Part shown: in pieces, positions 12,779-63,836 of the stretch
How the letters are laid out: every line of letters starts with the position of its first letter
How positions within the stretch are numbered: position 1 is the stretch's first letter
Notes under the pieces: model-generated
What the model was told of the DNA's origin: nothing
What the model saw: the letters and a program-made list of their open reading frames with translations, nothing else
Database searches by the model: none
Translations under genes and position numbers: made by a program
DNA from: Cliona cf. orientalis
Lineage: Eukaryota > Porifera > Demospongiae > Clionaida > Clionaidae
Direction: 5' to 3'
Assembly (NCBI GenBank): GCA_963930775.1
Contig: OZ005706.1
Location: forward strand, 2,126,545 to 2,190,544
Length of the DNA: 64,000 nucleotides

Positions 12779-15700
12779 ATGGCTGAAGCAGATTGGAAGC
12801 AAATACAAGAGAGAACATTCACAAAATGGTTCAATACCAAACTTGCACTTGGTGGACCTTCAAACGGTCAAATAACCAGCTTGCAGACAGATCTCAAAGA
12901 TGGCCTCAAGCTTGTACAGCTACTGGAAATTCTGACACCAAAGAGATTTAAGGGAATTAACAAGCAACCAACTCATAAGCAGCAAAAGTTAGGAAATTTG
13001 ACCATTGTCTTTAAATATCTGAAGGATGAAGCAAAAGTCAAGACGATTGACATGATTGGTAAGCTGAATATTAGCTAGCGGCACACTTAATTATACAAGA
13101 ATACCCGTACTGCATGTGGTACAGTGGCGCCGCTAACTGGGTGAAAGTGACATGATTGAAGGTGACTGCACAGGCCAGGTGGGGATGCATAAAGCATGCA
13201 GTTCACTGTACAGTATAGTACTAGCACAACAGGTACTATTGCATGTAGACAGTCTATATACAAGCACTGGCATACTTGTTACTGGCTGTGGCAGTGAAGT
13301 GAAACGTGCATACAGTGGGTCTGCACCTTGGTAGGTAAATAATAATCTGATCGATATGAAGGGTGAGTACACTGGCGTATGTATTGGGTGCAGGCAAAGC
13401 CATGCATAATATGCAACCCCCAACCCCCCCCCCCCCCCCCCCCCCCACCTCGTGACGCCACTGCTGTGGTAGTTCTGTGTGTACATGTATCTCAGGATAT
13501 TATTATGCTGTAGATCTATGACTGCATTAAAATTAAATATTGATTGCTGCACAGTCCACAAGCATATAAATTATGATCATGCTTAATGATCTCGAGCTTT
13601 GTGGTTGTCAATAGTTTGCATGCAGGGCTGGTTAGTGGAATAATAATTATATTATTATACAGTATTCATTGTTATAGTAGGCATGCATGAATGCCATTAG
13701 GGATATTATATTATTCACTAAAGTTGAATATCTGATAATCAACTCTTGCTTCTTAATATTACCAAAAATGGTCAAAGAGGTACACCAGCCTCAATCATTA
13801 TTCCGTAACTGTTGTGTGCAATCGCTCTTTAGTAGTTGTTAGATCAATGAGTGAATTCCATTTCTACAGAACCTTTAAATGTGCACAATGGTGAAATGAA
13901 GTGGATACTTGCTCTTATGTGGAGGCTGATCAGGCACTTTCATATGAGGTCCCACGGCAGCGATTCACATCTGGAGCAATTTATACTGGCATGGGTCCAA
14001 GCTCAAATCCCGGATCAGAATATCAAAAATTTCACAAAAGATTGGAATGATGGCGTGGCACTTTGTGCCTTAGTTGAACATATAGAGCCAGGTGCTTGTC
14101 CAGATTATCCCACTCTTGATCGTGAGAAAAAATGTGAGAACTGTTCTCATGGTATAGAGCTCGCAGACAAAAAGCTTGGAATTGCAAAAATTATTGAGCC
14201 TGAGGACCTGAGTGATTCAGATGTTGATCCCGAAAGTATCATGACATACATATCTCTTTTCTTCAAACCTGCCAATGAGCGTCTTTTGAAGTGGGTAAAA
14301 GACAAAATGCCTGAGCTAGACAGAGAGGGAAAGGTCACCAATCTCGACACCGACTGGAAGAACGGAGTGAACCTCGCTTGCCTTTTAGATGCACTTCAGC
14401 CAGGGTGTTTTCCAAATTGGCGAGGTTTGAATCCAGCAAATGCATCAGAAAATTTTGCCCTGGCAATGAAATGTGGCGAGGAGCGTTTTGGATTAAAACC
14501 AGTCCAGAACTCTGATGGAAGTGTGGACGAGCTAAGCTTAGCTACGTATCTTACTCACCTACAGCGATCTAGCGCTGTTGACGTTGTATGTGAAGGTCCA
14601 GGCTTGAGTAAGGCCTTTATGGGAAGGTCTGCCGCTTTTGAAATTGACGTTACACATGTACAAAGAGAAACGGGAGATTCTGAGCCAAGTATCACTATCA
14701 CCGACAGCAAGAACACTGCAATTGAGCCTCAAATCAAATCAAATGGGAAAGGAAAATTTCGAGTCGAATACAAACCGTGGTCGACTGGTAAACTCAAGGT
14801 AAACATCAAATGGAAAGGTAACCCCATACCGGGTAGTCCATTCAGTGTTGATGTCATGGACATGGCAACACTGAGCTTTAGCCCCAAGCAAAAGTGCATC
14901 AAGATTGGTGACCCGATTATTTTTGAAGTAAAAGGCACCAGTGCTTATGGAGACGATGATCTTGACATACTCCTTCAAGATGCCAGTGAAGCAACAGACC
15001 TGGACGCCAAGGTAGACAGCATCGTACTAAAGAGTGAAGGAATTGTGAAATGCTCCCTTAAGGAGGCAAAGCCTGGAAAATACAAGGTCGCCACAAAAAT
15101 TGCCGGAGTTAACGTTCCAGGTAGCCCATTTCAAATTGAAATAGCCGATCCCCGGCAATATGAAATTCAGCTGCCTGAGAATATTAAAGACGGACATCTC
15201 ACGTTAAACAAATCTTCCATATTTACTGTCATAGGACGAGATGCAACTTCCAGCTGTCTCGTGGCAAAGCTGCAAAGTCCAGGAGCTTCAGAGCCGAAAG
15301 AGATAAGCTTGTCCCAACACAAAGGCTCTGTCAGTGGAAAGTTTACACCAACTGAAGGTGGTGTCTACAAAATCTATGTTACATGTGCTGGGGAGAATAT
15401 TCCACGTTCACCTATCCAGCTTACTGCCACCGACCCACACCGATGTTTCTTTGATAGCAATCTTCCACAGTTTGTCCAAGTTGGTGCACCTTGCAAAGTG
15501 AATCTTAGCACCAAAGGAGCAGGGCCTGGTGAGGTGACGGTCAGTTCTTCACAAATGGAAATTTTAGCTGTTAACGGTGAACAAAGCAATGATCACTTCA
15601 CTATTCAGTTTATTCCAAAGAAAATTGGAGAGTCAACCATCGATGTAAAATTTGATGGAGTTTCTTTGCCGCCAACTCCCCACATCTTATCAGTCTGTGA

Positions 15701-18134
15701 TGCAAGCAAGTGCACTGCTTCTGGCGAAGCCTTTGAAACCGGCCGTGCAAAGTGCAATGAACAGTTTGCAATCACAGTTGAGACAAAAGGTGCTGGTAAA
15801 GGAGAGCTAATGGCCAAACTCATGCACGGCTCAAAGATAACTTGCACACGTACTCCTGAATGTGACAGCGATGGCACCTGTAACTTCCCATTGATGTCAT
15901 ACGAAGCTGGAGCACATTTACTGAATATCCTCTGGGGAGGTGTCCACATTCCAAATAGCCCATTCACAGTAAAGGTATCATGTGATGCCACACAGTTTAT
16001 TGCTCAAGGAGAGGGGCTCAAGGAAGCCACTGCTCACAGACCCGCTAAGTTTGAACTGAAAGGTCCACAAAGTGGTCTGCTCGAGGAAGATATGCTGCAA
16101 GTGAAGATTAGAGAAGCCCGATACGAAAGTAAAATGGTCAGCAAAGGAGAATTCAATCCCACGAGTGAAGAAGCTCTGGTGTGCGCGACTGAAACCAAAA
16201 AGGGAGTGTATTTAGTCCAGTACAGTGTACCAGCTCACGGTAACTTCACTATCTATGTGACAATCGACGACAAATCAGTTCCAGGGAGTCCCTTCAATGT
16301 CAAAGTTCATCCAGATCCATCAAATTGTAAGGTCTTTGGAGATGCACTTGAACACCCACACAGCCTAGTGCTCGGCAAAAGCATAAAGTTGAAGGTGGAT
16401 ACAACTGAAGCGGGAACTGGTGAACTTACTGCAACAGCAACTGATCCTGCATCATCAAAAACACAAGTGATGCTTAGATCAGATTGGAAAAACAAAGTTT
16501 ACGAGCTAAAAATCGACCCAAAAATGATTGGAGAACACAAAATCGAGGTTCACTGGAACAATGAACATGTTCCTGGAAGCCCTTTCTCGTTCGACATCTG
16601 TGATCCTATAAAGGTCAAAGTTCTCAAATTACCATCTACCTCCGCTGAAGTTGGGAAGCCTATCACATTCCTGGTTGATCCTAGAAAGGCTGGAAAAGGT
16701 CAACTTCAGTGCACTGTCAAAGTGACGAGTGTTAATGATGATCAACTTCGCGAATTTGCAATCGAACCCAAACTCCAAGATAATGGTACATACTCTTTAG
16801 AGTTCATTCCACATGAAATTGGTCAAATGCAATTGAATCTCACGTACAATGGTGAAAATATTCTTCCTGGACCATGGGAGTGTGAGATAGCCAATCCTGT
16901 TCTGAAACTGCATAGTAGCAACTCACATGAGAAGCAAAATCAGCCAGTGAAATTTGAGGTGAGTGGATTAACGAAGAAAGTGGCAAACAAACTGAAGGTT
17001 AGCATCAGCCATCCAAGACACAAGAACCCAAAAATTCACAACGATTCTGAGCAGCATGATGGTCGTAGTATTATCTACCACTTTATGCCATCTCAGCTGG
17101 GAAAGTATGACATCCACGTGAAGATTGATGGTAAAGATATTCATGGCTCTCCGCTCAGTGTGCAAGTTATAAATCCTGAGGCATGCATTATCGAAGGAGT
17201 GATCCCTGATACTATTTTTCTACAGCAAAGAAAGAAATTCACGATTGATACATCACAAGCTGGACCCGGTGAGCTCTCATGGGAGATCAAGAATCGAGAG
17301 AAAGATGGCCAAAGTAGCATGCCTAAACTTGACTGCAAAATTAAATGTACCAATCCCAAGAATGCAACTGTGGAAGTGAATGGAGTAGAACCTGGAAAGT
17401 GTGAGCTTATCCTCAAGTGGGGTTGCTATGCAATTCCACAGATGCCCTTGGATGTTACGGTATATGATCCATCACAATCCTCATGCAAATTTGAAGCAAT
17501 TACAAGTCCAGGAAAAGCGAAGACTAGTGATAGAGTACCTGTGCTTATTGACACCACTAAAGTAGGTTGCTGTGAACCAACAGTTAAAGCAAGAGGGCCA
17601 AGTACTGAGTACTGTGTAGACCTCGAAAAGATTGGTGAAGGAGAGTATAGGGCCTCTTTTATTCCAAGCGAAGAAGGACATCAAAACGTTGAAATACTTG
17701 TTGATGATGTAATGATGCCTAGTTGTCCACTTACATTCAAAACGTACTCACCCACAAACAAGCATCATGATAATGCCAGTGTTACATTTGATGTTGGAGT
17801 TGAGACAAACGATACTGATACAAGCCAGCTCCATCTAGAAACAGTCAACCCCAAAAAGAGATATCGAGTCAGAGTGAAGGAAGCGAAGCCAGGAGAGTGG
17901 AAGACAACCTGCACAGAAGAGGATAAAGGAGGGCAGGAGCTTCGAGTTTTGCGCAGTAAGTCAGAGCTCATTGGACAGCCAATCAAGATTTCAGTCAAAG
18001 ATCAAAAGAAGGCTGGTGGATTCAACTATCGTAAGATGGTTGTTTTAGCATTACTAATGCTATTAGCATTACTAATGCTATTGATAGCTATAGTATCAGT
18101 GAAGACCATTGATTCAGAAAGTAGACCAGTCTAG
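12779..18134 (+). CDS. Filamin/jitterbug-type protein with C-terminal membrane segment
   Basis: Two exons: 12779-13058 and 13870-18134, joined at split codon G|AA through a GTAAGC donor and TTTCTACAG acceptor; 1514 residues. The in-frame GTG at 12731 is not used as start because ATG at 12779 gives MAEADWKQIQERTFTKWFN, the usual CH1 beginning. Order: three calponin-homology domains (about 1-115, 120-230 and 235-345; the last two show KDWNDGVALCALVE and TDWKNGVNLACLLDAL), then about twelve filamin Ig-like repeats, most ending in the typical PGSPF or similar turn, then a hydrophobic helix made mainly of L, A, I and V close to the C terminus, followed by about 12 polar residues. Filamins cross-link actin; three CH domains are known from Drosophila jitterbug. 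The terminal membrane anchor is not a feature of filamins I know. Nearly the whole protein lies in one 4.3-kb exon. Confidence 0.93.
13123..13462. mobile_element. Short TIR element in filamin intron
   Basis: Bounded by CAGTGGCG at about 13123 and its inverse CGCCACTG at about 13455, with an internal poly-C run at 13425-13447. Resembles a non-autonomous DNA element. TSD not clear. Confidence 0.45.
13463..13869 (+). other. Rest of filamin intron 1
   Basis: AT-rich intron sequence ending in TTTCTACAG. No gene or repeat recognised. Confidence 0.5.
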
Positions 18135-18373: not shown

Positions 18374-21300
18374 ATGATGGCAGGGCATAGTCATGCTCAC
18401 TCTCCAGGGGAAGAAGCTGGCTGTTCTTGTGCACTTCACTCCTCTGGAGTTTCACAGTCTATGCAGGTCTGCCTCAGTGTGCTCTAATCATTGTCTACTT
18501 TGAAGAGGCTGAGCAACGACTTTTTATCTGTTGTTCATTTTAACTTACTGCTGGAGGACCGTTATCTTGCATACTTGAAAATATTCCTATGCCAGAGGAT
18601 TGTTTCCATTTAAACCATAATATCAAGTTTAATCATTGAAGCCTGAGGCTGGAACTCTTGGTTACTTTAGTAAACTTTTTGTAGGAGCTTGAGTTTGAGA
18701 GGGGGATCTGGCCAGCTGCCATGGACGGAGAGCTGAGCAAGGTGGAGAGACTGATCAAGAGTGGAGTCTGCCCCTCTGTCCCTGACTCATCTGGCTACAC
18801 TGCTCTGGTTAGAGCACCACATACCATACTAGCTACTGCACAGGGGGGACATCCCTTCACATCTCCCACTCCATGCCTCACTTATTCTCTCTTACACACA
18901 CTGACACACATGATATATGCAGTTCACAGATTGAGGCCTTCACATTCGTTCATGTTTGTATTGATAGCATCTAAACTGTATTAAAGTACCTCAGATCCTT
19001 CCATTCCATTCGTATCTATATTGATAGCAGCTGAACTGTACTAGAGTGTCACAAATCTGATCCTTTGCCCCTTGCATATCTGTGCTGATAGCAGCCGAAC
19101 ATGCATGCATGCTCACACACATACCACATCATTCACACACACATAGCACTATGCTAGTCGCAGTGGACACTTGAAGATCTGCCAGCTATTGATCTCTTCT
19201 GGGGCCAGCGTCAACGCTCAGACTCCCGGGGGAGTCACTCCTCTTCATCGTGCAGCCTACTGTGGCCACGTTGAGGTGGCTAGGCTGTTACTAGAGCAAG
19301 GTGGAGATACTGGACTCGTGGATAGTGACGGGAGAACAGTGCTACACAAGGTTAGTTCTTTCATAATTATTCAGGAGTTCACTGTATTATTATGAAAATT
19401 TTAGTAGACACTGGTAGCTCTTTCCATGGACACTTGTAAGGGAAGAACAGTGCTATGCACGGTTTGTCCTTTCACATTCAAGGGTTCACCACTGTATAGA
19501 AATATTTTAAGGGGAAGGCAGCATTTAACCTAATGTGATAAGTTTTTTTTATCATTTCCAAGTGTATAGTTGACAATCCATGACATTGTAATTTCCTATC
19601 TTAATACTGCATTCATCAAGGCTATACTAGAGTTCCAATGAACATACTGACACTATTTTTATCGTCGGGACCACTTCCCCCCACTATCACTACCCTATTA
19701 CTATCTATTATCTGAGCAGCTGAGCTTCCACCCAATGCTTCACGTAGACCTGCATACTTTAGCTCAATCCAAGAGTTAGTTTCTGGCATAAATACATGCA
19801 CTTGATTGACTGTAATATCATCTCCTTCACTGTTATCATCACCTCCTAGTGTCAGCAAAGCTCCATTGATGCTAACGGCTGCTGAGCCTATTAGTGGACA
19901 TTCTGGTAGCTCTTTCCACATTTGTAGCTCTGAGCTTGACGAATTTGAAGGAGCTGGTTCTTTGACTTTCTCTCTGTTTGGTCTGAAGCTGATGAGATCT
20001 TTTGTGTTGGCGTATGTAACTTTTCTGCTGCCATCTTTTTCTGCCGCTTCTCCTACTAAGAAGCAGTAGTCACCAATGACTACAGATGGTGCTGCTGCAT
20101 AGGGGTGAAGCAGTTGGGCTGATCTGTGCCACTGACAGGTCTCACTACTGTAGATTTCGACCAGCTTGCAGGGGATGGGCTCTTGGCAATCATCCACTAT
20201 AGCCCCTCCACAGACAATAATGGCTTTATCTGTGCTTATGACTATTGGCGTAGTTCTTGCTGTTGGCATTGGTGGGATCTTCTCTTCCCACTTTTTGTTC
20301 TGCTGCTCATAGCTAGAGATATTTGCTGAAACCCTTTGAATATTGCAGCCTCCAACGGTAATTAGCTCCCCTTGAAAGTAGCTGAGGCCGTAAAGAACAA
20401 CTTTGCTTTGGCTGTGTAGCTTCCAAATATCACCAAGAAGGTCGTACTCAAGGACTGTGAACATATCCAGATCTGCCGCTACTCCTCCTCCAACGTAGAT
20501 CTTTTGACCGCTCACGACAATTTGTGGTCTGTACCAACTCACTGGCACATCAGTGCATCTCTTCCACTCTATCCTTGTGCTGGGGCTGATTTCTCGAAGC
20601 TGCATCAAGTTAGGTAGCTAATTAAAGTAAGCAAGCTGCAAAAGATCTGCTCATTTATACTTTCAGCATGCCGGCGTAGTGTTATGCCATTATTTTGTGA
20701 ATACATAGGTATTGAGCCAAGATATTGAAGAAATAGGCATACTCAGCCAAATGGTTGCAGTAAACAAGTTCACTGTACTATGGTATCAATGCTCTATTAT
20801 CATACCATGCATACCACCACTGACTATCTCATGATAGAAACTAACTGCTTATCTTGCCAAGGCCATTGTCTCGGTCTCATGCATAACTTGCTTTTCTCCA
20901 CCCTTGGGCTTACTCATTATGACTTAGGGACCAAGTAGCTATATAACTCACTTGTTTTAGCAGTTGAGGGTCAATAAATTTAGCCATATCAGCTTCTTCT
21001 CATTGTGGAAACCACTGGAGCCTGTGCTTGAATGACTATAGCTACTGTAGAATTGACGGGTAAACATCCCTAAGCTGGAGGTGACATGTTTATGTTTGAG
21101 ATCTCGCGGTTCATTGGTTGTAAATTATCAGTGGGAGTTGCTGACAGGAAGTGCTTGAACAAATAGTTATTTCTCTCTTCTTTGTGCATGGTATGTTTTG
21201 TGTGACATGCTGTGTACACTGTGTACACTGCCCAACCCATGCAAATTAATTGTGATATGCTTGGAGCATTAATGGATAGCTCAGTGGCCATTAGATATTT

Positions 21301-26222: not shown

Positions 26223-29045
26223 TCATGGTAAACGAGAGATATATGAAGAGAGTGTAGGTGAGGAGACAGTTGAGTGGGGTAGCGAGTTCCACAATGGGAT
26301 AGTTCCAGGAAAAAAAGAGTTTTGGAATTGATTAGATCTCGCAAATATATTTCTGAACTGCAGGGGATGGGAGAAACGATTGCTGTAGTGGATGACCCTC
26401 AACTCCAGCGGGGACTCCGGCATAATTGTGAGATTGTTTACAATCTTGTACATGTGGTATAACCTAGCACGAGATCGCCTCTCTGCAAGAGCAAGAACAC
26501 CACTCTGAGTGTACAAGTGGTCCCTGTCACAGGTCCAATTTTTGAGGCAGACCCGAAGAGCAAAACGCTGCACCTTCTCAAGGGATTCAATATCCCCGAG
26601 GAGATAGGGACTCCAAACGACTGAGCAATACTCTAGATGGGGACGAATAAAAGACTTGTAAAGCTGGAGGAGAGTGGCCGAGTCAGCATGTTTACCAAAC
26701 CGTCGGTATAGAAGGCCGATGAGTCTCCTGGCTTTAATACACAAATTGGCCACATGGGTGGACCATGACAGGTCAGAGCGGATCTGCAAGCCCAGGTACC
26801 TCACAGATGAGACTGTTGTAAGGGGAGTACCTCCAACAGTGATGGCGGGGGAAGGAAGATTGGAGTTCTTTTTCCTAGAGATAAGCATTTGGCAGCATTT
26901 GGCAGGTTGTAAAGAGAGCAAAGAGCTGTCGATCCACGATACAATGGCAGAGACATCACTCTGGAGAATGGAATAATCCACAGATGAGAGAATTGGTCTG
27001 TAAAGGGCGATGTCATCAGCAAAGAGGGAGATTTTACTGCCCGAAGAAATCTGACTGGCTGTCTCATTGATAAAAATTAAAAACAGTAAGGGTCCTAGGA
27101 CAGAGCCCTGTGGCACCCCCGAGATAACAGGCAGGGAAGACGATTGCTCACCCCCAACAACAACTATCTGTGAACGGCAGGTAAGGTAACTTCGAATCCA
27201 TTGCACAACATACGGGTCAGATCCAATCTCCTCAAGTTTATGAAGTAGGAGGCGGTGGGAAACACTGTCAAATGCCTTCCTCAAGTCAAAGAAGATAGAG
27301 CATACTTCATTACCCATTTCAAGTTGATCCAGCCAGTCATGCGTCACAGTTAGCAAAGCAGACACGGTGCTTCTCCCAGGCAGGAATCCCCATTGTCTAA
27401 CTGACAAAGGATAGTTAACAGTACGGAAGTCAGACAAGAATTGGTGGACATGACGCTCCAAAAGCTTGCTCACAACAGACAGGATGGAGATAGGACGGTA
27501 GTTGGAGGGTGCGGACATAACCACTGATTTAGGGACAGGAACAATGCGAGCAAGTTTCCACGATTCAGGAAAAGATCCAGTGGATATGGATAGATTAAAT
27601 AATCTAGTGAGACTAGGCACCACAGCATCAACAGTACCCCTCAACATCCTCACAGAAATGCCATCTGGGCCGGTGGACTTGGAGGGATCAAGTCCAACAA
27701 CTAGGTCATAGACCTCAGCTTCAGTACAGAGAAGTTCCGGTGGGCAACCAGAGGTTGGCAGAGATGATGGGGTAGCTATAAGTGGAGGAGATTTGGTGTT
27801 GAAGCAGTCGTAGAAGAAGTTGTTCAGGAGAGATGCCTTTTCACAGTTGTCAGTGATTTCTGCACCATTGGAGAGCAACGTAGGAATAGAGCATTCTTCT
27901 TTGTTCAGTAGTTTGATTGACTTCCAGAAGTCTTTAGAATTTTGAGACTTTAATTTGCGAAAGTATCTGGCTTTACTGAGGCGCAGCATAGCAGTGACGC
28001 GGTTTCTAGCAGCTCGGTACTTTTGGTGCATTGATCTAGTACTTGGAGACCGTTTGTGGGCCTTGAATAGGGCATTGCGTCGCCGAATTGCCTGAGTGAT
28101 CGATTTGGTAAGCCAGGGCAAGTTCCGTCTTGACCGAAGGGTGGACTGCGGGATACACTCAACCATGATTTCTAGGAATCTGGCTTTCCAATTGGACCAG
28201 CAGATGTTCACATCGCTTGAAGCAAATAACGAGTCCCAGTCGGTTGCATCAAGACGTTCACAAGCTCTGTCTAAGTTAGCGAGCGAGTATCTCCAGACCT
28301 TGCGATGGGTTTTCTTTGGGTTAGCCTTCGGAGGACCTGCAGCAATAGAGGCACAGAGGCCACGATGATCAGAATTGGCCAATGGAGGGATGGTTGTACA
28401 ACTGAGGAGATATGTGGGAGTTGACAAAAAGACCAAATCAATAAGTGACTCAGAGGTGGATGAGAAGTGAGTTGGTTCAGAAACAACTTGGGTGAGATTT
28501 AAACTGGAAGCAAAACTCTGGAGTTTAAGTAACAAGGGACAGTTAGTGTTGCATAAATTAACATTAAAATCTCCCACCAAAATAAAATTAGATAAAAGAG
28601 ATACATCAACATGCAGACATAAATAATTAAGTAAAGTATCAAAAATACAGGCAGGTGCACTAGGAGGACGATAAAAAAGACCTACAGTGACTGGTGAAAT
28701 TAATGAATTAATAGAAAGAATAATAAGCTCGAGCTCAGATGGCCCTGAGAAAAGTATATTATAAGAAAAAGATCTTATTACAAAAATCAAAACACCACCA
28801 CCTTGCCTATTTCTATCATGTCTAACAATGTCATAGTTATCAATACAGACTTCAGAATTTAAAATTTGTTTATCAAGCCATGATTCAACAATGCAAATGA
28901 GGTGGGGCTTATGAACTAAAGTAAGGGCTCTGAGCTCTTCAATCTTAGGGAGTAGGCTACGAGCATTAAAATACATGACAGAAATAGCACCTATCTTAGA
29001 TAAATGATGGGATGATATATTTACTGAACAGCCTCCCCTAAAAAA
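26223..29045 (-). CDS. LINE ORF2: endonuclease and reverse transcriptase
   Basis: The first ATG is at 28976 (917 residues to the stop at 26223), but the frame is open back to a TTTTTTA heptamer at 29039-29045. The N-terminal third is an APE-type endonuclease (VMYFNARSLLPK, ICIVESWL, LVGDFNVN, SDHRGL). The reverse transcriptase follows, with [53 protein letters not shown] and the catalytic FADDIALY. The C terminus has no recognisable RNase H. This order fits the CR1/L2/Jockey group. No internal stop is present, so the enzyme could be functional. Confidence 0.88.
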   Translation of the reverse strand, partial: FFRGGCSVNISSHHLSKIGAISVMYFNARSLLPKIEELRALTLVHKPHLICIVESWLDKQILNSEVCIDNYDIVRHDRNRQGGGVLIFVIRSFSYNILFSGPSELELIILSINSLISPVTVGLFYRPPSAPACIFDTLLNYLCLHVDVSLLSNFILVGDFNVNLCNTNCPLLLKLQSFASSLNLTQVVSEPTHFSSTSESLIDLVFLSTPTYLLSCTTIPPLANSDHRGLCASIAAGPPKANPKKTHRKVWRYSLANLDRACERLDATDWDSLFASSDVNICWSNWKARFLEIMVECIPQSTLRSRRNLPWLTKSITQAIRRRNALFKAHKRSPSTRSMHQKYRAARNRVTAMLRLSKARYFRKLKSQNSKDFWKSIKLLNKEECSIPTLLSNGAEITDNCEKASLLNNFFYDCFNTKSPPLIATPSSLPTSGCPPELLCTEAEVYDLVVGLDPSKSTGPDGISVRMLRGTVDAVVPSLTRLFNLSISTGSFPESWKLARIVPVPKSVVMSAPSNYRPISILSVVSKLLERHVHQFLSDFRTVNYPLSVRQWGFLPGRSTVSALLTVTHDWLDQLEMGNEVCSIFFDLRKAFDSVSHRLLLHKLEEIGSDPYVVQWIRSYLTCRSQIVVVGGEQSSSLPVISGVPQGSVLGPLLFLIFINETASQISSGSKISLFADDIALYRPILSSVDYSILQSDVSAIVSWIDSSLLSLQPAKCCQMLISRKKNSNLPSPAITVGGTPLTTVSSVRYLGLQIRSDLSWSTHVANLCIKARRLIGLLYRRFGKHADSATLLQLYKSFIRPHLEYCSVVWSPYLLGDIESLEKVQRFALRVCLKNWTCDRDHLYTQSGVLALAERRSRARLYHMYKIVNNLTIMPESPLELRVIHYSNRFSHPLQFRNIFARSNQFQNSFFPGTIPLWNSLPHSTVSSPTLSSYISRLP

Positions 29046-29644
29046 GGAACATTTGCACTAGGGGAGTTAGTGGTGTTGGCAGAATTGATGGGTTGGGTTG
29101 AGGAAGCAGGGGGATTGGACCCGGTTGGCATGGGAGCAGGAGTAGCTGCAGCCTGGGATGGTTCGGAACTGGGTGGAGGGAGTGGGATATTATTGTCAGA
29201 CTGCTGGGTCGTTGGGATGGTATCTGAAAAACTGTATAAAGGTTCCAACTTCCAGTCGACCTGTAGTTGGACTGAGGTCCACTTGTTCTCGAGCTGGCCC
29301 AGTATTTCTTCGCCACCCCGAATTACAAACCACTATTGTGCTTTATTTCTAGTTGAATTGGGGTGGCTCATTCTGAACTTTCTTTTGACGGTAAAACTGG
29401 AATCGGCCAATTTGGTCAGAGAAGCAATGGTCTTCGACACAGCACGAGTGGTAGCACTAGGGTGGGTACCCCAAATTTTTCTCGCTCCAGAAATTGGAGC
29501 ACGGTTCCTCCTGGTAGTGGATTGATGAGAATGGCTTTCAGGTGAATTTTCTTCGCCTACAGGCTTAGACGACGATTGCGAAGCAGACACGTGCGGTGGC
29601 GCTCGAGGTCTTTGTTGCGGCTTCTTCCGTCGGCGTGGTGGCAC
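29021..29644 (-). pseudogene. LINE ORF1 with one in-frame stop
   Basis: ATG at 29644; basic N terminus (MPPRRRKKPQQRPRAPPHVS), TAG at 29333-29335, then the same frame continues (VIRGGEEILGQLENKW, then a Pro/Gln/Ser/Thr-rich tail) to TAA at 29021-29023. It is 208 codons end to end. The composition fits an ORF1 nucleic-acid-binding protein but no known ORF1 domain is visible. The stop means either a degenerate copy or readthrough. Confidence 0.6.
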
Positions 29645-56435: not shown

Positions 56436-59400
56436 TTATGTAGACTGTTGTGCTGCAGTTTCTTTTGCCTTTGTTTCAGTTTTCTTGAGTCTTGCTCTTA
56501 TTGCTGTGTAGTTACCTCTCAGCTGTATTCCATGCTGAAATCCGAATATTACAAGCCACACATAAAATATTATAGGTTTACAGCCAGCTATATATAGGGG
56601 AACTCAATGGTGGAGAGGAGTAGCTAGATATATTAAACTAACCTTGATCAGCCTGATGCCATGGACCCACCGTGCCATGGACATGAAATCATGAGCGCAG
56701 TAAAACTTCAAATCTTTCTCTTTCCAAGAGAGTGGAGGCTTTATGAAAAAACAATCATGATTGATTGTATGATTCTCAAAATGCAACTACTCCACTTATA
56801 CCTTCATGATGAAGCAATATTTGTTGGGTATTTCGCTGTCCTTTAGGCTCGCAATGATTGGAGTATAGAGTCGGTGGTCTAGCGATGCCGATAGGTCAAG
56901 TTTGCTGCCCCTTTTTGACTCTCCAACGCTATAGATCCCCACACCTTTCAGGCAGTGTTTGCTTAGCTTCCATTTCATCTTTCTTGAGCGACCTTGCTTA
57001 GTGCTATAGAAAAGGTCGGAGGATATTTCAGGAATCTTATCTTCCTTAGCAAATGCTCTAATTGACTCTTTTGGGATCTGAAATGAAACCATCATCACAC
57101 TCTTATCAGATAAGAAAAAGTTTCCAACACATACTGGTGGATTGACACTCCAAAGGATATTCTTTGAGGCAAAATCTCTAAGCACCAATTTGGGTGGATT
57201 CTTGCTTGGCCAACGCCCAAAGATATCCTTTATCAGCTCATGGTCTTCAAGTGGACATTCTGAAATATCCAAATAATAATGATATTTGGAGAGTTAAGTG
57301 TTAGCTAATTATTCTTTATGGGATAAACTTTTTTAATAGGAACATACGTATTTTTAGAGCTTCACAAACTTCAAATAGGGCCGAAGTAGATTTCAGCACA
57401 AAACCTGAGGCTTTTGCCACCTTAAAGATCACCACAATCACCGGTGATCTCTCCTTCACTGTGACTTGGTACACCCCCTTCGAGGGACCATCTATTATCT
57501 CTACTGTCACTGATAGCTGCATGTATGACAGAGGCAACTCACAAGAAGAGCAATAATGTACCTGAGACTCACTGTTGGAGAATCAGAACTTGGTCCCATT
57601 TTCTTAGACTGCATGTGTGTAAATTTGTATTAAAGAGTGGTAGACAGGTACTAGCATATAATTACCTTCACTTGTGTATCTGGATTACTCTCCTCCAGAG
57701 TAGCTGCACAAAAGTGGAGAGAACAACAATTCAATGTTTTGTAAGGTTTTCTTAAGTTTGAAGGTCAAACCTTCTGAGGATGATAGGAGGTTTCTGTTAG
57801 CAGGAAGTAGTGGACTCGTCTCGCTTGGAGGAGTGTCAGTTGCAGCTCCGTCTGTTGTGGAAGCAGCTGCTGCCTCCCTCTCCCTCTCTGTCTCACTCTC
57901 CTGCTTGAGCTCCTTAGCTCTGGCTTGAGTGCTGGACTGAAGCAACTCACTCAAGCCACTGGTTATGTCTGACAGTTCTTGCATCGCTTGACTCACTGCA
58001 TGGAAAGATAGATCAATGGATGATCCGATCATATACTATAATATACATCCGCTAGGCCTCCTACTATTAAATAGATATGAATTTCTATCCTTGACATGGT
58101 TTCACGATCAAAGCTTAAGACTGCAATACTACTCCAAAATTTTACCAATAATTATACTGATCGACTTACATCTAACTGGTGACGTCTGCTTGCCCTCACT
58201 ACTAGCAGCAACTTCTTCAGTTTCACTGCTCTTCTTTTTTGCTGCATCTTTCTCTCCTTTTTCTACCAGATTTTCAAGCTGGGCCTGCAACTTTTCTACG
58301 CTTTCAAATGTTGCTTCTTGTGAGCGTGTGAGAGGCAGAGGCCTAGAGATAGGTGGCTCACGGGGAGAAACTCCATCAGTTTCTTCAGCTTCCATCTCAT
58401 TTGTGATGATCTCACGTGCCTTCACTAGCAACCCTCTCACATCTTCTCTACTTGATCTTTTTGGAGTAGCAGCTGCTTCAACGGGAACTGGTACATTCTT
58501 TGATTTCAAAAAGTTAGTCAGTGAAATTCTTTAGCTACTGCAGCTGGTAGCTATGTTACATACCTGCATATCAAACCACTTCCAGAAGGCTTCCCCTTCA
58601 CTGCTCTCAGTGAACAATGAGATAATAAAATCACTCTCACTTCTCCAAGAATGAAACTGAGAGATGAAATTTGCAGCAACATCAAAGGGGAGCATTCTAG
58701 TCTTCCATCTCTTGCCTTGCCATACAAACAGCTATAAATGAAACGAGAGAGAAAAAAAAATCACTTTATGAGCTAGATGCTATGCATGCACATGAATAGT
58801 AATAATGGATTGATTAAGCAGCTACTAAAGTTGATTTTAATGACTTCAGCATACCATGTTTTTGTAGCTGAGCAGATAGCATTTATCCGACTGCAGGTTC
58901 TTTTTGGTCACAGGCTGCTGTAGCTGTGTGAAGGTGACCACTCCCTTGCTCACACCACAAGAAAAGATCAGAGGGAGTGTATGAGTTGGATGCCTATTAG
59001 ATGATGGACAAAATCTCTCAGTGCCAAGCAGATTCAAAAATTGAGGTGGCTCCAAATTTTCAGGCACTATTATCACTGGCTGCATGTGTATAATAATTAT
59101 ATCAAAAGCATAATGTAGTGACATCTATATGTAGCTACCATTTTTGGGGAGGTCCCAATAGTTCTTGCTTTTTCCAGTGCACTGAGCAAGGTATTCTTTC
59201 TCTCTTCCACCTCAGCACCCACCCAGATATAAACCATCCCTTCGGACCATGTGTAGTGAGCGCCCTGTTTGTGCTCACTGTGCTCTACTAGGTAGACATG
59301 GGATGAATCAAAGGTATCCACCTCGTCTAGTGTTAGTTGCTTCAATTTTTGGTTCTCCAACAACCAAATCTTTAGATTGATATGAATGTAGTAAAACACA

Positions 59401-62400
59401 TAAAGATTATAATAATAATTACTATTGTAGCTATCAGGGCCTATTTCTTGTATGCAATACTATAGGAGACGTTCCCCCACCCCTCCTGCCCACCATACCC
59501 CTCCAAAACTATCCTCCAAAAGGTTTACTTCATGACAGGATATGTTACCTTGGTCTGGCTATTAGTAGGGGCAGGGAAATCTGGCTCATTTTGAGTGGGC
59601 AGGTAGAGAGCAGAAGACCTTTCTGCTAGTTTCAAATCAACAAATGGCCACGAAGAGAAATGTGAGTAGAACTCCCACACTTCTCCGTCCTGTATCACCA
59701 CGGTGACGGGAGTCCACTTTGGGTAGGAGCACTGGGCTACAAATAGCTAGTCAAATGAATAAAAAAGTTAACTATTATTACCATTACTGGTACCATATAG
59801 CTACACATGTATCAGGGTACCTCAGCAATACTGAAAGCATTCTTCAACTTTTTGTCCTCCCAGCACTTTCTGGGTAGCCACACAAATACACAGAGTGGTG
59901 AGTCTAGAATAACAGGAACACGGATGGTTCTCAGATGCTCGGCCGACATGCTTGAATCTTCGACCGTCTCAAATGAGGAGAGAGACTCATCAAAGGTATA
60001 CAGCAAGGCCTTGGTGAGGAAGCTGTTGAGGTAAGGAACAGCTGCTTTGTACTTCTTCAGCTTTTTTGCATCGGATCCAAGAGCAGATACAAATGAGAAC
60101 GATTCATATCCCTGAAACTGTATAAAGACCTTAATATTAATATAGAGCCTCATCACCAGGCTCCTAGTTTATTGATAGGATCATCCCTATAGGTCTTAGT
60201 CATAATAATTAATCATAGCTCTAGGTGTTGGGACAAACAAAGTTATGCTGAAATTATTACACTAGCTGTGTATCATACCTCTCTGTGCATGACCGGTCTC
60301 CCGGGCAAACACTTGGCTAACATCTGGCAGTGCTCGTAGGCTGAGCGTACTAGGGAGTTGCTGGCATTGCTGCCCACCCACTGGTAGACGTGGTGCAGGA
60401 GTGGGCCCTGCCACGCCACGTAGTGGAAGATATAGACATCCTTGGCATTGAATGAAGCTGACCCAATGGAACACATGTATCCAGCCTATAAAATTTATTT
60501 ATTACAATTATAACTCTTTAAATTTTCCATTGATAATGATTGATATGTGTTGCATACTCACTTCTTGCTTCCAAATTTGTAGACTACCTCTGGTATGTTG
60601 AGGTGGGAAGCTACTGCTTGTGGATTGCGGGGCAGACAGCAGTGCAGCAACCTTGCCCTCAGCCTTCAAGATTTCTTTAGCCTCGCTCTCTTCGCTTGGA
60701 TCACCCATCCCAAGGGATGACGTTTTGGAATCCTTTAGATGAAAAGGTGGAGCAGAGACGGGTCTACTTCGAGATTTTCTCATCTTCTCACGCAATGCCG
60801 CTGCTCCTCCTGGAGAGGACTCCTCCTTCTGGTCGATGTGTTGAAAGCTTACGTGCAAAGGCTGTCGAGCTTCACCAGAATCTATAACACTACGAGCCTT
60901 TGTTGATCTAGAATCTGACCCCGATCGAGGGTGGCCTCGTGTCCCTTTCTTTGAAGAGCTATCGCCTGATTGGTCAGCAGGTAGTAGTCCATCCAGACGA
61001 AGCCTCTCCTCAGACAATCTCCGAGATAAGTTTGGATGAACCTTAGGTAGGGGTACGATTTTATCTGTCCTTTCATCGCCCGCTAACTCAGTAGCTACAT
61101 GATCTAGGAGGTCTGCAGTCGTACGTTCAACTTCCTTATCCTCTTCCGCTTCTCGAATGGTCTCAAATGTGGTCATACTGGCACGACTGGAGAGTGAACT
61201 CTTTCTCTTCACTTTGCCGTGTGACGGTGACACGTTGGAGGGTGATCTTTCTGTAGGTCCGTCCACCTCATCTTTTAGAGCTTCCCTCAGTGCTGCTGCA
61301 GTAGTGGCGTCCTTCTCTGAGGAGGAAGGTGGAGAACTGGATGACAGCTCCTCCTCCTTGATAGGACTAGTTTTAGTAGGAGAGCTTAGATGGGGTTTAG
61401 TTTTAATGACCCTCTCCTGGCGTTGAGTCTGTTTCCATGGCGATTTGATGTAGTCAGAGCTGCCTCCAAACATCATGAGCTTGGCGCTTACATTCCCCTC
61501 TTGTACCCCTGAAGCGGGACGAAGCTTCTTGCCTTTTCCAGTTCCACCTTGATCGTCATCGTCTGGCTCTTGCAGACGGTCTCTCATCTTGAACACTTCT
61601 GTGTATCCCCTCTCCTCCCACTGACGCTCAAAGTCTTGTACCTTATGGTAAATGGCCTTTGGACCAAGTTGTTTAAGGTGCATGGACTCCACGCTAACTA
61701 GACTAACTGTTTCTTCAAGTACGTCTTCCTCTTCGTTTTCACTAGTTGCCTCCAGCACCTGTTCTGCACTGATGAGCTGTTGCTGGTCCGGAGGTAGTTG
61801 GTCAATTCTGTTCAGACTGTGCCGTTTCTCCCATCGATTTAGAACACTATCTCTTTCACCACCCTCTACTTCATTCTCTAAATGGTGTTGTGAACCTTTG
61901 TCTTCGAAACGGAGCTTCTTCACTAAACCATCATCTTTTTTCACCTTTTCTCCCAGTGATATAGCCAACCCTCCACTGTTTCTCATACTAGTTACCCGGC
62001 CAGCTTGCCACTGCTTATCTTCCCGTGCTCTGTGTGACTCTAAATCATGCACATTCTCTCCAAAATGCTCGAAATTTCGATGGTCAAGTCTCTCAAAACC
62101 TGGCGTGACGAAGCTATCTCGCTGGCGATGTCCAGACTCATCATCACTGCCTTCAGGAGATGGTAAATCATTATCTGCTGCTGTGTTTTCAGATGTGCTC
62201 AAGGAAGGTTGCTTTCCATCAGGAGCAGATTTGAAAGTGACCGTTATTGTCCTGTCAGAAGTAAGAAGACTATGTCTCTTTTCATCTTCTTCAACGACGA
62301 TAGCCTTTACTTCAGTCTCAACTATAGTGGCTCTTTCGTTCACTGCAGCTATAAAATTAAGTAAAGCGTTATCAAAATTTAATGACTGTGACATTAGAAT

Positions 62401-63836
62401 GAATGCACTACTAAGACTTACTTTGTGTTGAGATTGTTTCCTTTACCAATGCATCGGCGAGTGTCTCTGCCACGACCTCGTAGGAGGAGGTGGGTGGAGT
62501 CTGAGAACTGACTTGAGCTTGGTGTTTAGGTCCACTTGATGCTGCAGGCTCTAAGTGCAGGCTCACTTTCTTCTTTGATATTTCTTGTTTTGATTCTGGT
62601 GCCAGCTTGACGTTCGTTTTGGATACCTTTCTTTTCTTTCCACTTGATTCTTTGGTTATCGACTCCTTTCTTAGCTTAGCTGGTGGCACCTTCTGTTCTG
62701 CAGAATCTGGAGCACCGCTCAAACTTCTCTTGGGTTTCTTCTCTGATTTCTTCACTTTGCCACCTTCTGTGGTCAATTTTGTACTCGATGTCTTGATCAG
62801 CTTTTTCTTATCCTTTGATGCCGCTTTTGGGGCACCGAATTTCTTGATGAACTTTGCCCTCTTGGGAATGGGTGAATCACCACCGCCGCTTTGCCGAAAC
62901 TCCGCCTTCTTGCTCGGTGATATGCTGGATTTCTCCTCTCTTGGCTTGTTCCTGAGTTCAACCTTGGGGTTCTGGGGCTGGGTCACCTCTGGTGCTTTAG
63001 GAGGCTCCATAGCAACAGCAACATCTGTTTTAGGAATGTTAATTGTTATGTGGAATAAAGACATGAAAATAGAGGATGTGGTGATTTGTAGTAACTATGG
63101 TTAGTGATGATAGCTACACCAAAAAAATATGTCATTGAATGTTTCAGGTAGCTATAGCTAGCCATATATTACTTTATATGGTTACCTTGCTTTGGCTTGC
63201 TCTCAACGGGAGGATGAAAGAGCCCGATGCTGAGACCTGGGCGAGGCTTGAATGGTGATACGTCCTTGGGAACAAATTCATCCTGCACGACAAAACAAAT
63301 AACTCCCTAGAAACATTAATTATTAAAATTTAATTTATACTATGTAATATGGATAACACATTGATTGCAACAGCTAGCTATGGATGTATACAGTCTTGTC
63401 TCCAAATACATTCCCAGCTTTTCAATTGGCATCATGTAGCATTGAAGTCTGGAATGGGCCCAAGGACGAGTGGTGCATAAGTCATCTTACATAACCTATC
63501 CCAAATTTAGAATTTAGGGGAGCAATGCCAGCACCTGTGCTGGCAAACCAAGATTTGAATATGCATGAAAATTATGCCAAATTATGCGTGATAATTTTTC
63601 AGATTTTGTAAGGGACTGTCATGCCCAGTTTCACACATAGAAAGGCAGATTTCACCGTCAGTAACAGTTACTATGGTAGCTAAGCCAGACCACTACTGCA
63701 CCTTGTTGGAAGGTTTTTGTCGACGCCTCAGTGATCCAGCAGGAGTTATCCTTGTGGCACCGTCCAGTGAAAATGCCGAAGGAGACGCCTCAGCCGCTCC
63801 TTCAAGGAGGAGCTTCAAACCAGGCTGAACTGCAGT
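56436..63836 (-). CDS. Supervillin/gelsolin-like protein fused to RA-PH (MRL-type) module; 5' end beyond window
   Basis: Eighteen exons join in phase: 63702-63836, 63186-63282, 62422-63024, 60562-62348, 60279-60485, 59821-60111, 59549-59746, 59139-59369, 58855-59079, 58564-58731, 58170-58497, 57771-57995, 57666-57703, 57573-57608, 57348-57516, 56802-57259, 56643-56738 and 56436-56534; 1796 residues in view. The first part (four exons, about 870 residues) is Lys/Ser/Glu-rich and disordered, as in supervillin. Next come gelsolin-like repeats (HHVYQWVGSNASN, CVFVWLPRKCWEDKKLKNAF, MVYIWVGAEVEERKNTLL, LFVWQGKRWKTRMLPFDVAA). The villin headpiece expected at the end is absent. Instead a linker, a short helical segment (SQAMQELSDITSGLSELLQS), an RA domain (VTVEIIDGPSKGVYQVTVK, LFEVCEALKI, CPLEDHELIKDIFGRW) and a PH domain (MKWKLSKHCLKGVGIYSVGE, NKYCFIMK, FMSMARWVHGIRLIK) follow, ending in a basic helix. 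RA-PH in this form is typical of Mig-10/RIAM/lamellipodin adaptors that bind Ras/Rap GTPases and phosphoinositides. The fusion rests on a 66-nt intron (58498-58563). Confidence 0.85.

Follow-up and report, generated by a model that had tools for sequence, protein, structure and literature searches.

A predicted espin-type ankyrin, gelsolin-like and RA-PH composite gene in the sponge Cliona cf. orientalis

Extent of the gene and its sponge relatives

The 64,000-nucleotide stretch of the Cliona cf. orientalis genome analyzed here (C18:2126545-2190544 of 217 Mb; hereafter the window) carries on its minus strand a gene whose complete model, as read from the genomic sequence, comprises 26 exons and encodes 2181 residues. 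The predicted protein is composed of ankyrin repeats, a long domain-less stretch, four gelsolin-like repeats, a linker and a C-terminal RA-PH tandem, in this order. We are highly confident that these parts, with ankyrin repeats of espin type and an RA-PH module of MRL/Grb7 type, form the architecture of a single protein. For the full explanation favored here, a member of a fusion family acting as an actin-bundle scaffold at the membrane, we estimate a probability of about 0.7.

A first-pass annotation of the window had the gene span 56436..63836 and did not include the espin-type ankyrin domain at the N-terminus, encoded outside the window. In fact, the gene reaches approximately 20 kb further, and seven additional exons encoding the ankyrin repeats are found in the next 20 kb of C18, all in phase, from the ATG at window-equivalent 83868 down to 64066. 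The exon at 63836 is no protein start in the model, its acceptor joining the outside exon in phase 0. Exons 2 and 3 are separated by a 14.8-kb intron, whose acceptor, once excluded from the scoring matrix, scored lower than each of the 24 others. At the exon 7/8 join, the acceptor is middling (12 of 24 lower) and the donor weak (3 of 24 lower). For 21 of 26 exons, neither of the other two sense frames scored better than the chosen one, codon scoring thus being weak evidence exon by exon. The joins of the ankyrin part as well as the step into the first exon of the window read straight through in a relative of Ephydatia type (P0003), in which the block spanning the exon 7/8 join continues with 37% identity over 109 residues (E 2e-10).

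The ankyrin part was recognized in a Pfam scan as Ank_2 (1.9e-56). Among solved structures in the PDB, espin was matched end to end in a single stretch running from 19 to 339 of the query and from 6 to 326 of the chain (248 bits for this chain). Ankyrin-1, an ankyrin-1/2 chain and NOMPC ranked higher by summed score, which in their case was spread over several stretches, none of those listed exceeding 97 bits. Identity to vertebrate proteins named espin (P0027, P0031, P0035) amounts to 42-44%, and the protein hence displays the N-terminal ankyrin repeats characteristic of espins. Espin further contains WH2 motifs and a C-terminal actin-bundling module. In the same Pfam scan, the middle region of approximately 790 residues matched no family, WH2 included, at E values up to 5, although short motifs of such kind can be missed. 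Two more espin-type ankyrin genes were observed in the genome. One is a paralog 0.85 Mb off (L031, C18:1335001-1345000, minus strand; 74% in one exon), followed by kinase-like frames and a proline-rich stretch, perhaps another espin-type fusion; the other (L027, C7:726831-730034, minus strand) shows 56% identity over 78 residues.

At the transition from the gelsolin-like repeats to the RA-PH module, the exon 58731-58564 (minus strand) ends in WFDMQ at CAG/GTATGT, and the following exon starts at 58497 after CTGACTAAC and AAAG. The intron in between measures 66 nucleotides and is of phase 0, and the phases are consistent from here to the stop at 56436, as the first-pass annotation had described for a join at 58563/58498. 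Its comparison of this intron with neighbors of 56-67 nucleotides holds for introns further along, whereas the immediate neighbors measure 123 and 174 nucleotides. In exon 58497-58170, the required frame stays open over 109 codons, compared with 5 and 16 stops in the two remaining sense frames. The donor is strong, as its score exceeds those of 22 of the model's 24 other donors and is equaled by 0.4% of 5013 GT dinucleotides in the 84 kb scanned.

In order to find relatives, the ankyrin region was used as a guide together with whole-protein length. The search scored 7992 candidates, those with the most words in common and 0.55 to 1.75 times as long as the query, and returned 123 matches (120 listed); any restriction of the family to sponges is therefore provisional. 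Pfam domains of the gelsolin and/or RA families are present in ten of the 120 listed matches (P0003-P0012). P0004 originates from Oscarella lobularis and P0011 from Oopsacas minuta (NCBI, the latter under the name Espin-like), and P0003 (EukProt name Em0021g45a) we take to be from Ephydatia muelleri. Seven unnamed ENA proteins are 63-75% identical to P0011 and, thus, probably stem from glass sponges. The three named species represent Demospongiae, Homoscleromorpha and Hexactinellida; judged from these sequences, the family is found in at least three sponge classes.

Comparison by BLAST with pieces of the window protein revealed the order ankyrin, gelsolin, RA-PH within one predicted protein in eight of the ten relatives, and the other two each hold one part behind the ankyrin domain. 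The earlier proposal of a single protein uniting gelsolin-like repeats with an MRL/Grb-type RA-PH module is thereby supported, and the suggested look at other sponges found the order of parts kept in these eight. P0003 is the closest relative (34% identity overall compared with 23-25% for the other nine). The window RA-PH module aligns to P0004 with 103 bits (E 5e-28) and to the eight full-order relatives with 63-79 bits, and the gelsolin part to P0003 with 97 bits (E 5e-24); shuffled controls reached 28 (RA-PH) and 30 bits (gelsolin) as the best of 200 each. Against the eight, the gelsolin part alone is weak (best E 5e-9 to 1e-5). Domain content was examined by Pfam rescans of P0003, P0004, P0005, P0006, P0008, P0009, P0010, P0011 and P0012, with P0007 taken from a precomputed list only. 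In all seven rescanned members of the eight, PF00626 reaches 4e-19 or better and RA_2 exceeds its cut-off, and the RA-PH alignments to the eight extend through PH. In the Oscarella protein, PH passes (6.7e-8) and RA_2 falls just short (26.5 of 27 bits). On the available evidence, read from sequence throughout, the join is real and part of a larger fusion. Apart from these ten, P0020 of Sycon ciliatum combines an ankyrin domain (40% identical over 76%) with a C-terminal calponin-homology domain rather than gelsolin and RA-PH parts.

Table 1. Exons of the composite gene and the join intron (window positions)
Feature	Position	Strand	Content
Exons 1-7	window-equivalent 64066-83868, beyond window on C18	-	ankyrin domain
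Exon 8	63702..63836	-	first exon inside window; conserved block just after ankyrin domain; phase-0 join upstream
Exon 9	63186..63282	-	after ankyrin domain
Exon 10	62422..63024	-	Lys/Ser-rich, no Pfam family
Exon 11	60562..62348	-	long stretch without Pfam family; its end starts gelsolin-like repeat 1
Exon 12	60279..60485	-	gelsolin-like repeat 1
Exon 13	59821..60111	-	gelsolin-like repeats 1-2
Exon 14	59549..59746	-	gelsolin-like repeat 2; 47% over 32 residues (E 5e-4) to C19 villin-type genes
Exon 15	59139..59369	-	gelsolin-like repeat 3
Exon 16	58855..59079	-	gelsolin-like repeats 3-4
Exon 17	58564..58731	-	gelsolin-like repeat 4; C-terminal WFDMQ
Join intron, 66 nt	58498..58563	-	GTATGT donor, CTGACTAAC branch-like motif, AAAG acceptor
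Exon 18	58170..58497	-	linker, gelsolin part to RA-PH
Exon 19	57771..57995	-	linker, coiled-coil-like by eye
Exon 20	57666..57703	-	linker
Exon 21	57573..57608	-	linker
Exon 22	57348..57516	-	RA domain, N-terminal half
Exon 23	57135..57259	-	RA domain, C-terminal half with LEDHEL motif
Exon 24	56802..57077	-	RA-PH linker and PH domain
Exon 25	56643..56738	-	PH domain, C-terminal part
Exon 26	56436..56534	-	end of PH helical extension, tail, stop

The RA-PH module, the join and the gelsolin-like part

Several observations weigh against the favored reading, concerning the RA-PH module, the join and the relatives themselves. When cut out, the RA and PH domains remain below the Pfam curated cut-offs (RA_2 6e-4, PH 7e-4), so that of the profile matches foreseen in the first-pass annotation only gelsolin passed. 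With RA alone, no solved structure was matched convincingly (best E 0.44, Grb7). Identification of the module therefore rests on the RA-PH pair as a whole and on the sponge relatives: the pair matched Grb14 (5e-13) and lamellipodin (2.9e-12) in the PDB, each in one stretch over RA and PH, as well as RIAM (1.6e-13), mostly through the PH stretch. The tandem appears as one unit with the helical extension typical for MRL/Grb7-type proteins. In RIAM, K213 contacts Rap1, K327, K328, K331, R332 and R333 contact PI(4,5)P2, and the helical extension takes part in dimers for which other regions are required too, as described in portions of PMC8813058. In the Cliona protein, E212 of RIAM aligns to Lys and K213 to Ala, the lysine contacting Rap1 thus not being kept, and of the five basic PH residues two remain. 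Because of these losses, the "Ras/Rap- and lipid-responsive" character assigned in the first pass is doubtful for this species. The K213 position is occupied by Leu in Oscarella, while E212 and K213 are kept in all eight relatives of glass-sponge type, which leaves Rap sensing possibly dependent on the member: judged from these alignments, it may hold in some members of the family and be relaxed in this one. K193 of RIAM was kept in one alignment and replaced by Tyr in another and was not used. Likewise, a talin-binding motif of LD type ahead of RA is not claimed, as the exact LDxLLxxL occurs only in Oscarella, is degenerate in the eight glass-type proteins and absent here.

These residue losses, together with the low Pfam scores for RA and PH, are what would be expected if the fusion were real and the RA-PH module a decaying passenger without ligand binding. 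We regard this as unlikely, since the module is open and retained in relatives from other sponge classes, E212 and K213 persist in the glass-sponge-type proteins, and comparison to RIAM and Oscarella shows good conservation of both the LEDHE motif and the helical extension WVHGIRLIKHGIQLRGNY. The extension itself is conserved here and in Oscarella and less so in the eight glass-sponge-type proteins. A genome-wide search with the RA-PH module (few candidates scored) returned the gene itself in five of six matches and one other weak match (E 0.01) on C11. The C11 gene (L032, C11:36001-42000, minus strand) has an RA domain (3.8e-16), a proline-rich region and an SH2-like end just under the cut-off; it is Grb-like and keeps the lysine equivalent to K213.

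Concerning the join, the acceptor is weak: none of the 24 others scored lower, and 35% of 5623 AG dinucleotides scored equally well. This acceptor was left out of the scoring matrix, whereas the others contributed to it and are thereby favored. Furthermore, the second part, said in the first pass to have no ATG at its head, contains in-frame ATGs at 58395, 57984 and 57599 upstream of the RA domain. Codons alone consequently do not exclude a separate second gene, and the argument for a single gene from a missing ATG is not strong. No AWTAAA was seen between 58700 and 57900 and likewise none within 436 nucleotides past the true stop, rendering this test uninformative. Among the relatives, the model of P0003 stops behind its second gelsolin repeat and lacks RA-PH, and P0004 shows no recognizable gelsolin repeats. 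PH was detected in only two of the seven rescanned proteins, P0010 and P0012, in both under the cut-off (0.056 and 0.016). In addition, the sequence of the gelsolin-RA linker is not conserved, and the relatives are predicted gene models themselves. Direct protein searches with the gelsolin and RA-PH part returned nothing at E 0.01 despite the presence of relatives in the database, which were missed because of the word-based first look. An ankyrin-gelsolin gene stopping within the 66-nucleotide intron, followed by a short MRL-like gene starting at one of the three ATGs, would be in line with the weak acceptor and with the P0003 model ending within its gelsolin part. Such a pair of genes is nevertheless very improbable, given that the two exon sets lie just 66 nucleotides apart, that the eight full-order relatives hold all parts in one predicted protein, and that Oscarella joins ankyrin and RA-PH in one protein.

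The gelsolin part as a whole was identified by PF00626 (5.4e-15) and DUF7904 (1.2e-13), and its closest solved structures are gelsolin (2e-16) and villin (2e-11). Taken singly against PF00626, repeat 4 passes the cut-off (8e-5), which repeats 1 (1.5e-3) and 3 (5e-4) narrowly miss, whereas repeat 2 has no Pfam match and is recognizable only against gelsolin and villin-type sequences. The protein thus shares the gelsolin repeats of the superfamily in the form of four divergent copies. All six genome matches of this part are the gene's own exons (few candidates scored); the same search also missed the villin genes and, thus, shows only the lack of a second close copy. A candidate short actin-filament motif, VxxLxxxFE (mentioned in part of PMC13364712), was kept only as a lead, a loose pattern scan having flagged only an ankyrin-repeat stretch. 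By eye, GNVSAKLMMFG (exon 11) and GNVSHMLRVFR (P0003) share its V and F positions, neither having been flagged in the scan.

The first-pass label "supervillin-like" found no support. None of the five villin headpiece matches (PF02209) in the genome lies on C18, and the gene model ends after PH. Three are found on C19, with villin-type frames at two of the three loci by eye. The remaining two lie on C12, where the frames accompanying one are LIM-like by eye and the other ends a gene that appears supervillin-like. The headpiece of the latter ties villin (7e-15) with supervillin (8.5e-15) in the PDB, and its flanking repeats resemble supervillin, the label being presumptive. Similarity of the gelsolin part to a 3.1-kb piece of this gene is at chance level (best E 3.3). 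Supervillin itself turned up among solved structures with its headpiece alone. An orthologous supervillin that lost its headpiece and gained RA-PH, for which the position of the repeats behind a long domain-less region, as in supervillin, would speak, was rejected as the least probable alternative in view of the espin-type N-terminus and the headpiece gene of supervillin type on C12 with its chance-level similarity.

Neighboring genes

A kinase-kelch gene (L010, 4906-7280, minus strand; Pkinase 1e-30, Kelch_6 1e-22) is nested on the same strand within the 14.8-kb intron and is resembled by eye by a kelch-like frame at 19622-20617 (minus strand) of the window. A single-exon frame of 1427 residues at 13851-18134 (plus strand) with two CH and 11 filamin stretches is filamin-like and ends in a hydrophobic stretch by eye, a possible transmembrane tail. 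At 26223-29057 (minus strand), we recognized by eye the open reverse-transcriptase frame of an element of long interspersed nuclear element (LINE) type.

Known systems and a putative role at the membrane

The domain families involved are all known. No description of ankyrin, gelsolin and RA-PH together was found among the matches listed in searches of the open-licence PMC literature. A database record with this architecture exists under the name Espin-like. Espin and espin-like proteins (ESPN, ESPNL) share the N-terminal ankyrin domain and the long domain-less region behind it, but the vertebrate espin matches list no gelsolin, RA or PH domain. MRL proteins (RIAM, lamellipodin, Mig-10) and Grb7/10/14 share the RA-PH tandem with the helical extension, the ligand residues being partly lost in the sponge protein, and are not known to have an ankyrin or gelsolin part. 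Compared with the gelsolin/villin/supervillin superfamily, the gelsolin-like repeats are common, whereas the sponge protein is devoid of a headpiece, with ankyrin repeats ahead and RA-PH behind. Villidin and class-4 coronins unite PH and gelsolin domains in one protein; as far as outlined in parts of PMC3203266, they differ by a coronin domain first, PH before gelsolin, a headpiece last and neither RA nor ankyrin. The same architecture is present in the Oopsacas minuta protein P0011, with identities to the window protein of 51% in the ankyrin and 25% in the RA-PH part, four Pfam gelsolin stretches in comparison to three, and E212/K213 kept.

The gene product is most likely a sponge actin-membrane adaptor of espin type. 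As to how it would act, we put forward a plausible but tentative proposal of an actin-bundle scaffold at the membrane, with microvillar location and actin binding as part of it. The ankyrin domain would engage a motor protein or cargo, as does that of espin, which reportedly binds a myosin-III-type tail. Actin is predicted to be held by the gelsolin-like repeats, and the RA-PH module would dock the protein to the membrane or dimerize it there. In this species, the module probably has a structural or dimerizing role rather than sensing Rap and PIP2. Choanocyte collars are studied as a model of how animal microvilli originated, with espin and villin among the proteins followed, and espin homologs were reported to be choanocyte-enriched in freshwater sponges (both according to passages of PMC4942974).

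These data imply that "espin" in sponge gene lists may denote a different machine. The protein would also tie membrane signaling of Rap/integrin type to actin bundling in one molecule, and whether the composite is a sponge invention or the ancestral state becomes testable. A bolder view, to which we give little credence at present, is an ancient pan-sponge composite coupling an espin-type bundle organizer through gelsolin repeats to an RA-PH adaptor of Rap/integrin type. If true, a single molecule would perform in sponge collar microvilli the work split in other animals among espin, villin and RIAM. Had the animal ancestor already possessed this composite, separate espin and MRL genes could have arisen from it by fission.

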